Positions 35,710 to 44,723 of a stretch of 64,000 bases of DNA are shown piece after piece (the stretch's first letter is position 1; each line of letters starts with the position of its first letter). Source of the stretch: Ruficoccus sp. ZRK36 (lineage in GTDB: Bacteria > Verrucomicrobiota > Verrucomicrobiia > Opitutales > Cerasicoccaceae); contig NZ_CP080649.1 of NCBI RefSeq assembly GCF_019603315.1, positions 3,358,176 through 3,422,175 of the forward strand, in the 5' to 3' direction. The notes below the pieces were generated by a model. The model ran no database searches, had not been told where the DNA came from, and saw nothing but the letters and a program-made list of their open reading frames with translations. The translations under genes were made by a program, and so were the position numbers.

Positions 35710-35815
35710 GCATCCCTTCTCTTAAGCGGTCGCCTGCCCTCTCATTTCTGGAACCAGCGTCAAAGGACTCTAAAAGCGCTGGACAGCATTTGTCGGTCTT
35801 TTATGGTCCATTAGC

Positions 35816-36904
35816 ATGATGAGGCTCACCGCCATACGCTTCGTATTATTGACGTTCGTAAACCTCGCGTTCCTGCACCTGGGGACGACGACTGCCAGCG
35901 CCCAGAGTAAGGTCGAGCCCGGCATGCCTAACCCGCCCAGCCAGCCGACCGAGGTAAAGGTCGGGGTCTTTCTAGCCGATATCATCGATCTGGACGAGCT
36001 CAACGAAACCTTTGAGGTAGAGCTGATTGTGACAGCCGAGTGGGACGACAAGCGGCTGGCCTTTGACCCCGAGGAAGAAGGTGCCCCGTACAAGCTCTTC
36101 CAGGGCGCTTTTCAGTTTAACGAAATCTACTCGGCGTGGTGGCCGCAGCTGCTCTTCGTCAACCAGGTGGGCAGCGGCGATGTAAACGCGGTCAAGATCA
36201 TGATCGCTCCGGACGGGCACGTCCGCTACCTGGATCAGCGCAGCGTGCTGCTGGAAACGCCCATGAAACTGCGGTCCTTCCCGTTCGATACGCAGACACT
36301 GGTGGGCACGATCGTCTCCTTTGGGGACTACAGCGACCAGGTCAAGCTGGTCGTCGATGAGCGCGTACTCGGTGCCAGCGAAGCCCATGCCGAGGCCAAC
36401 GAAGACGTAAATATCGCCCAGTGGAAGCTGCTCGGCCTCGACCTCAAGGAGCAGGAAGCAGACTTCCGGTACTACGGCGGAAACAGGAGCTTTTCGGAGT
36501 TGAGCCTCGAAATCACGCTCAAGCGCCAGTCAAAGAATCTGATCTGGAAGGTGATCGTGCCGCTGATCATCCTCGTGCTGCTGATGTGGGCCGTCTTCTG
36601 GCTCGACCCGGAGAGCCTCTCCGACCGCCTGAATGTGTCCTTTATCGGCATCCTGACCATCGTGGCCTACCAGTTCCTGATCGACGGCTCCATGCCCCGG
36701 ATCGACTACTTCACCTTTACGGACACGATCCTGCTCTACTCCTTTGTCGTGATGTGCCTGACCATCTTTGAAAGCCTGATGATCAGCTCCCTGCGCAAGC
36801 GAGGGTACACCAGCTTTTCAAACATGGTCGACCGGTTCTTCCGCTGGAGCTTCCCGATCATTTACTTTGCCGGACTGATCGCCAGCTACCTCTACTACCG
36901 CTAA
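35816..36904 (+). CDS. Pentameric ligand-gated ion channel homologue (Cys-loop family)
   Basis: 362-residue homologue of GLIC/ELIC, bacterial members of the family of nicotinic and GABA receptors. It has a signal peptide (1-30, cleaving near ASAQ). The beta-sandwich extracellular domain spans about 45-235, with VKVGVFLADIIDLDELNETFEVE, loop-type AEWDDKRL, WWPQLLFVNQVG and PMKLRSFPFDTQTL; the last matches the Cys-loop region (FPFD at 155-158), without the cysteines, as usual in bacteria. Four helices follow: M1 about 241-263 (IWKVIVPLIILVLLMWAVFWL), M2 about 269-290 (pore: DRLNVSFIGILTIVAYQFLI), M3 about 301-323, and M4 about 341-361. The linker between M3 and M4 is short. Bacterial channels are gated by protons or small amines; the ligand here is unknown. 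Confidence 0.88.
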   Translation: MMRLTAIRFVLLTFVNLAFLHLGTTTASAQSKVEPGMPNPPSQPTEVKVGVFLADIIDLDELNETFEVELIVTAEWDDKRLAFDPEEEGAPYKLFQGAFQFNEIYSAWWPQLLFVNQVGSGDVNAVKIMIAPDGHVRYLDQRSVLLETPMKLRSFPFDTQTLVGTIVSFGDYSDQVKLVVDERVLGASEAHAEANEDVNIAQWKLLGLDLKEQEADFRYYGGNRSFSELSLEITLKRQSKNLIWKVIVPLIILVLLMWAVFWLDPESLSDRLNVSFIGILTIVAYQFLIDGSMPRIDYFTFTDTILLYSFVVMCLTIFESLMISSLRKRGYTSFSNMVDRFFRWSFPIIYFAGLIASYLYYR

Positions 36905-44114: not shown

Positions 44115-44723
44115 CTATTCGCGTGAGCGTCGGCAGCGGCGTACAAAAAACGCCACGACCAGCACGGCGGCCCCTGCGATCAAGGCGTAGGTGGAGGGCT
44201 CGGGCACCGTCAGTGCCTTTTCGATACGGATGCTGCCAAAGCCGCTGCCGTCATACTGCCCCATGCTCAGGTCCTGTCCGATGAGAGCCTCAAAGCGCTC
44301 AATCGCCTGAGCCTCGCCATCTGCCCCCAGCCCCGCATACGAAATGAACGTACCGGTACCGGTGATGGCTCCGCTGATCGTGTCGGCGCCACCGAGCTGG
44401 GTGTACATGCTCAGGTTGATATTAACGTTTTCCGTTTCGCTGGTGAAGTCCATGTACATGGTCACCTCTTCGCCTCCAGAGACCACAAACTTCAGGGCAT
44501 CGGAGACCCCCGTCAGATAGCCGTCTTCATTCCCATAGACACCGGCATTGAGGTTCTGAAAGGAGATAATGTAGTTACCGCCTCCCGAATCCTCGATCGT
44601 GCCATCAAACGATCCGACAAAGGCCATCGTTTTATTATCAGTGTTCACCTGCAGGGTCAGAGCAGCCATGGCTGATAAACACGGTGAGAGAAGACAGAGA
44701 GTAAGTAAGGTGAGTTTTTTCAT
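44115..44723 (-). CDS. PEP-CTERM sorting domain secreted protein
   Basis: 202 residues: signal peptide MKKLTLLTLCLLSPCLSAMA, a beta-rich Gly/Ser/Thr-rich body (LTLQVNTDNKTMAFVGSFDG, GNYIISFQNLNAGVYG, MYMDFTSETENVNINLSMY) and the sorting tail VPEPSTYALIAGAAVLVVAFF followed by RRCRRSRE. Probably a surface or extracellular matrix protein processed by an exosortase located elsewhere. No enzymatic motif seen. Monocistronic with its own terminator. Confidence 0.85.
   Translation of the reverse strand: MKKLTLLTLCLLSPCLSAMAALTLQVNTDNKTMAFVGSFDGTIEDSGGGNYIISFQNLNAGVYGNEDGYLTGVSDALKFVVSGGEEVTMYMDFTSETENVNINLSMYTQLGGADTISGAITGTGTFISYAGLGADGEAQAIERFEALIGQDLSMGQYDGSGFGSIRIEKALTVPEPSTYALIAGAAVLVVAFFVRRCRRSRE

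Follow-up and report, generated by a model that had tools for sequence, protein, structure and literature searches.

A GLIC/ELIC-type pentameric ligand-gated ion channel homologue in Ruficoccus sp. ZRK36 and the pore and pocket residues of its subfamily

Introduction

An open reading frame at positions 35816-36904 of a 64,000-nucleotide stretch of the Ruficoccus sp. ZRK36 genome (contig NZ_CP080649.1) raises the question of whether this member of the Verrucomicrobiota encodes a genuine pentameric ligand-gated ion channel (pLGIC) and, if so, which ions would pass through it, what would open it and whether it works together with the products of adjoining genes. The whole 64,000-nucleotide stretch that was analysed is referred to here as the window. 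An initial annotation, made from the letters alone, assigned the frame to the Cys-loop receptor family, left the ion selectivity of the channel open and regarded it as possibly new for this phylum.

Residues kept throughout the pLGICs comprise the [F/Y]PxD motif, a Trp in beta9, the pre-M1 Arg, a Pro in M1 and a Pro in the M2-M3 loop (PMC4795631, Table 1). The [F/Y]PxD motif sits at the tip of the beta6-beta7 loop and its Pro is absolutely conserved; receptors lacking the cysteines of this loop, the Cys-less Pro-loop receptors, have been described for prokaryotes (PMC4795631). Among bacterial pLGICs, solved structures turned up for GLIC, ELIC, sTeLIC and DeCLIC. Literature text searches found no paper on the natural role of any bacterial pLGIC, and searches on pLGICs of Verrucomicrobiota or on the subfamily described here also returned none.

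Results

The frame encodes a protein of the pLGIC superfamily

The frame is intact at exactly the positions initially annotated: on the forward strand, 362 amino acids are encoded from an ATG start without internal stops, and the stop codon ends at 36904. The product was compared with profile collections, the absence of any significant match having been named as one of the results that would speak against a channel. Pfam PF02931 (Neur_chan_LBD) matches residues 39-238 at 5.3e-23 with 82 bits, well over its cut-off of 26; PF02932 (Neur_chan_memb) matches at 5.4e-5 with 24 bits, below its cut-off of 28.1 bits. The transmembrane domain is covered by a phmmer match to GLIC and by the fold match described below. 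By sequence, the best solved relatives in the PDB are GLIC chains (2.6e-37, residues 27-361).

The closest family is NCBIfam NF033918 (LGIC_1), which matches at 1.2e-127 and end to end, residues 45-348 of the protein against model positions 1-304 of 305. The score of 425.5 bits is below the curated cut-off of 500 bits, as are those of the nearest relatives in our set, G002 and G030 (430-433 bits). Judged by these scores, the branch to which the protein belongs lies just outside the curated set, and NF033918 is best regarded as its closest family rather than one of which it is a formal member.

A structural model was computed with AlphaFold2 for a single chain, with an alignment of 54 sequences of relatives as input (mean pLDDT 83.4, pTM 0.69). 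In the model, an N-terminal helix (residues 2-27) precedes a beta-rich domain (45-237), which is followed by four helices, in agreement with the beta-sandwich and four membrane helices initially proposed. Searched with Foldseek, it gave 1107 PDB matches at E <= 0.001; the top match was GLIC (2.4e-26, probability 1.00), and the matches listed are GLIC and GABA-A-type receptors. Alignment with VIA-align gave Z scores of 25-26 over about 302-315 residues with chains of GABA-A receptors, GluCl and the glycine receptor. Matches of this strength lie well outside what chance would give. Taken together, the frame, the Pfam, NCBIfam and PDB matches, the model and the fold matches confirm that the gene (35816..36904, + strand) encodes a pLGIC-superfamily protein of GLIC/ELIC type, that is a subunit of a prokaryotic Pro-loop receptor.

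Domain layout and superfamily-conserved residues

All features of the protein lie on the forward strand. Residues 1-30 (35816..35905; MMRLTAIRF...TTTASAQ) form a probable signal peptide: by eye, an n-region and h-region are followed by TASA|Q, as the initial annotation had also read them, and the model places a helix at 2-27 and low confidence at 29-33. The ligand-binding-type beta domain, predicted to be extracellular (periplasmic), covers residues 39-237 (35930..36526) according to the PF02931 match and the strands of the model. It is followed by M1 (residues 239-262, 36530..36601), with an invariant kink proline at P249, the M2 pore helix (268-290, 36617..36685), M3 (301-328, 36716..36799) and M4 (332-361, 36809..36898), the last two joined by a short loop of prokaryotic type.

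The protein has all seven of the superfamily-conserved residues: F155, P156, D158, W203, R237, P249 and P294. The Pro-loop motif F155-P156-F157-D158 (36278..36289), already noted at these residues in the initial annotation, is not flanked by cysteines. Conservation was further assessed in a subfamily set of 59 sequences, made up of clade A (n=40), the clade of the window protein, and clade B (n=19). The P, F and D that end with D158 do not vary in either clade, Pro and Asp being present in 59/59 members, and the first position of the motif is Phe or Tyr; apart from this choice and one truncated M2-M3 loop, the superfamily residues hold in both clades. Because the only Cys of the window protein is residue 314, in M3, with no cysteine pair around the loop, the protein is a Cys-less Pro-loop receptor. 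The assignment to the "Cys-loop receptor family" was thus right as to the GLIC/ELIC-type superfamily and wrong as to the loop cysteines. Compared with the animal receptors (GABA-A, glycine, GluCl), the protein shares the two-domain fold (Z about 25) and the same conserved residues, and lacks the Cys-loop disulphide and the large M3-M4 intracellular domain. DeCLIC (Desulfofustis, calcium-inhibited) shares the pLGIC core and has an extra N-terminal domain which the 362-residue protein lacks.

The pore helix carries an acidic ring and an aliphatic 6' ring

The initial annotation quoted the M2 string DRLNVSFIGILTIVAYQFLI correctly, saw no ring of Glu just before M2 and left selectivity open. M2 was aligned with that of ELIC, using a reference sequence identical to PDB 2vl0. 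The pore-lining residues are D-1' R0' N2' I6' L9' A13' F16' in the window protein and E-1' R0' Q2' T6' L9' A13' F16' in ELIC. The acidic residue that opens M2, Asp270, therefore occupies the -1' ring position, aligned with the ELIC Glu, and this position is Asp or Glu in 59/59 subfamily members. The acidic ring that had been missed is consequently present, as Asp rather than Glu. In ELIC, E-1' is the selectivity filter, and L9' and F16' form the hydrophobic gate (PMC12637682); DeCLIC is likewise constricted at 9' and 16' (PMC9897478), and both residues are present in the window protein. Since Asp270 aligns with the filter Glu of ELIC, the channel is expected to be cation-selective, which narrows the question of selectivity.

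The 6' ring sets the subfamily apart. This position is aliphatic or Met (I/V/L/M) in 59/59 members, compared to Ser/Thr in 10, Gly in two, Ala in one and Tyr in one of 14 outgroup pLGICs (ELIC, GLIC and 12 pLGICs from genomes of Verrucomicrobiota). The pore of cation-selective pLGICs has been described as layered, with two polar layers and an acidic one lying beneath three that are apolar (PMC3119659). On the basis of the alignment, the subfamily is predicted to have lost one of the two polar layers through its 6' ring, and with the aliphatic ring its pore would be less polar than those of characterised cation channels.

Taken further, the constant apolar 6' ring, set against the Ser/Thr of most outgroup channels (ELIC and GLIC included) and the two polar layers described below the three apolar ones, would fit a non-conducting sensor, that is a protein whose periplasmic domain changes shape while four apolar rings (6', 9', 13' and 16') keep the pore dry. 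We consider such a sensor very unlikely, as the acidic -1' ring, the polar 2' residue and L9' show the conservation seen in conducting channels, and there is neither a conserved neighbour gene nor a cytoplasmic domain to take up a non-ionic signal; moreover, hydrophobic rings alone need not stop conduction once a pore dilates. The reading we retain is that of a gated cation pore.

The ligand pocket lacks the charged residues of ELIC and GLIC

Glu77 and Glu131 of ELIC are near neighbours of the amine, and replacing either with alanine left the channel unresponsive (PMC3119659). The corresponding residues of the window protein are L113 and V167, and these positions are hydrophobic and never acidic in 40/40 clade-A members; ELIC Tyr38 and Asn103 are replaced by I71 and L139. 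These replacements bear on whether the protein is an ELIC-like channel in which small primary amines, bound in the inter-subunit orthosteric pocket, open a cation pore. The two proteins are about 26% identical, and the window M2 is closest to that of ELIC (Erwinia/Dickeya, amine-gated), sharing the acidic -1' residue, R0', L9', T10', A13', Y14' and F16' and differing at 6' (Ile vs Thr). In the pocket, the Phe133 of loop B is retained (F169; 38/40 in clade A), and the positions of Phe19 and Phe187 are aromatic (F52, F226). With both amine-holding carboxylates replaced by hydrophobic residues throughout clade A, amine gating of the ELIC type nevertheless appears improbable.

GLIC (Gloeobacter violaceus, proton-gated) is also about 26% identical to the window protein, with homology along the whole chain and the same fold. 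Its orthosteric R77 and R105 are replaced by L113 and Q141, its 6' Ser by Ile, and the segment before WWPQ is seven residues longer in the window protein (QGxFQFNE). The coupling interface is more similar, and the RLAFD motif is common to both. E26, D32, E35 and D122 of GLIC are positions that alter its proton activation, E35 being named a key proton-sensing residue (PMC5760087); the window protein has D55, E61, E64 and D158 at these positions. The E35 position is Glu in 59/59 subfamily members, and Gln in ELIC and eight other compared pLGICs. The GLIC transmembrane residues E222, H235 and H277 are missing (S269, I282 and S324), with E222 lying at -2' and the acidic ring of the window protein at -1' instead.

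Because the amine carboxylates of ELIC are lost and the interface carboxylates of GLIC are kept, protons or another small periplasmic cue acting at the coupling-interface carboxylates are favoured over ELIC-type primary amines. We put this forward tentatively, as a candidate stimulus that is possible without being likely; proton gating in particular is only a guess because the three GLIC transmembrane residues are absent.

The gene has no conserved partner in its neighbourhood

Upstream of the gene and on the same strand lie genes for a ferrochelatase, a cytochrome c assembly protein, a glutamyl-tRNA reductase and an MFS protein; downstream and on the opposite strand are those for a TSUP/TauE protein, a RecF-like protein and a class-V aminotransferase. 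Three membrane-protein genes are therefore adjacent, and one could imagine a transport or sensing cassette in which the channel works with the adjoining MFS and TSUP proteins. The TSUP gene is on the opposite strand, however, and the arrangement is not kept in congeners: in G002, neither the MFS nor the TSUP orthologue shares a contig with the pLGIC gene, and G001 and G003 have MFS and TSUP without a pLGIC. Beside the relatives, no conserved neighbour was found, since clusters recur only in close kin or as scattered large families, and no neighbour family recurs across lineages. A cassette is thus extremely unlikely, which bears out the initial description of a gene next to MFS and TSUP genes without a partner. 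To judge from genome context, the gene acts alone.

A sigma-70-like site at 35780-35807 was considered as an own promoter and set aside, as one such site was found where 0.5 are expected. The congener locus L002 has, just upstream of its pLGIC gene and on the reverse strand, an ORF resembling by eye an EpsI-type exosortase-associated protein, in a neighbourhood unlike that of the window. In the window, a small exported protein (44115-44723, - strand) has a C-terminal end, VPEPSTYALIAGAAVLVVAFFVRRCRR, that looks by eye like a PEP-CTERM-type sorting signal. Near two Halioglobus clade-A copies (L030 and L031, downstream) and beside a planctomycete copy (L060, upstream) there is a gene for an MscL-like mechanosensitive channel; with three loci only, this may be chance.

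The subfamily is patchily distributed and the gene is under purifying selection

A scan with the single window protein as query gave no match, its patterns being too specific. When 84,980 species genomes were scanned on the basis of an alignment, 55 loci were obtained, of which 54 had a usable gene and one was a match truncated at the end of a contig. The relatives, at least 54, are found in Verrucomicrobiota, Planctomycetota (many), Pseudomonadota, Myxococcota and Binatota, including Gammaproteobacteria (Halioglobus, Thiohalocapsa), Alphaproteobacteria (Methyloceanibacter) and Myxococcota/Deltaproteobacteria. Bythopirellula polymerisocia, Thiohalocapsa marina and Methyloceanibacter methanicus are among the named strains that bear a homologue. 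Searches of phage records and viral contigs found no relatives; a plasmid search gave one distant match (Legionella adelaidensis, 24% identity), and ELIC as plasmid query gave none.

Closer to the window, the gene occurs in five of the ten genomes of its family and two of the four of its genus. A pLGIC of any kind is present in 14 of 388 sampled Verrucomicrobiota genomes (about 3.6%), and a close NCBI family model, NF033918, exists; the suggestion that the channel might be new for this phylum is thereby withdrawn. In the tree, the window gene, its congener copy and that of Opitutia UBA4506 (another family of the same order) group with Halioglobus and Thiohalocapsa (support 95/91), apart from the same-family copies G004, G005 and G007. 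This conflict and the patchy distribution point to horizontal transfer and loss in the history of the subfamily, processes already discussed for bacterial pLGICs (PMC4795631). Base composition was also considered as a sign of transfer and is not convincing (GC 0.578 and GC3 0.83, compared to 0.59-0.66 and 0.77-0.86 in the neighbours). Between the window gene and its congener copy, dN is 0.20 and dS 0.83, and dN/dS is about 0.15 in a close pair; the gene is under purifying selection.

The window genome has a single pLGIC, in one copy and of clade A only. Elsewhere, a clade-A and a clade-B channel that are about 33% identical occur together in six genomes (L030+L069, L031+L072, L035+L076, L037+L078, L039+L077 and L040+L079); these genomes belong to two unrelated lineages, Halioglobus and Chthoniobacterales-type Verrucomicrobiota, and the paired channels may form heteromers or respond to different cues. 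Verrucomicrobiota also have two divergent proteins resembling pLGICs, L018 (G143) and L019 (G125), in which FPFD is present and the M1 proline is missing; their M2 has F9' and G13', and they match the ligand-binding domain profile weakly (1e-4 to 7e-4). They possibly represent a separate pore type.

Discussion

The window gene encodes a real, probably functional and ordinary homologue within a recognised pLGIC subfamily. We regard it as very probable that the protein is a single-subunit bacterial pLGIC of the inner membrane, forming a pentameric, stimulus-gated cation pore, where pentamer, location, gating and cation selectivity are inferred, the pentamer from family membership. In the working we propose, the signal peptide would direct export, placing the protein in the inner membrane, its beta-sandwich domain on the periplasmic side, and five identical subunits would surround a pore lined by M2. 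At rest, the apolar L9' and F16' rings would shut the pore, as in ELIC and DeCLIC. On sensing a stimulus, the periplasmic domain would open it through the coupling interface between extracellular and transmembrane domains, formed by the FPFD loop, pre-M1 Arg237 and M2-M3 Pro294, and the Asp -1' ring would then select the cations that pass.

What modest interest there is rests with the subfamily, that is with its aliphatic 6' ring and uncharged pocket, and not with the single window gene. That the branch of 59 sequences has a truly distinct pore, with four apolar layers, and a pocket without the ELIC amine cage or the GLIC arginines, leading to new gating or permeation and a new ligand class, seems to us unlikely; if true, it would mean a gating or permeation behaviour and a class of ligand that are both new. 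Compact and without extra domains, the branch departs from GLIC and ELIC in specific ways, both in its ligand pocket and at the 6' position of the pore, and as such would be a useful extra test case for pore polarity and the interface between the extracellular and transmembrane domains as determinants of gating.
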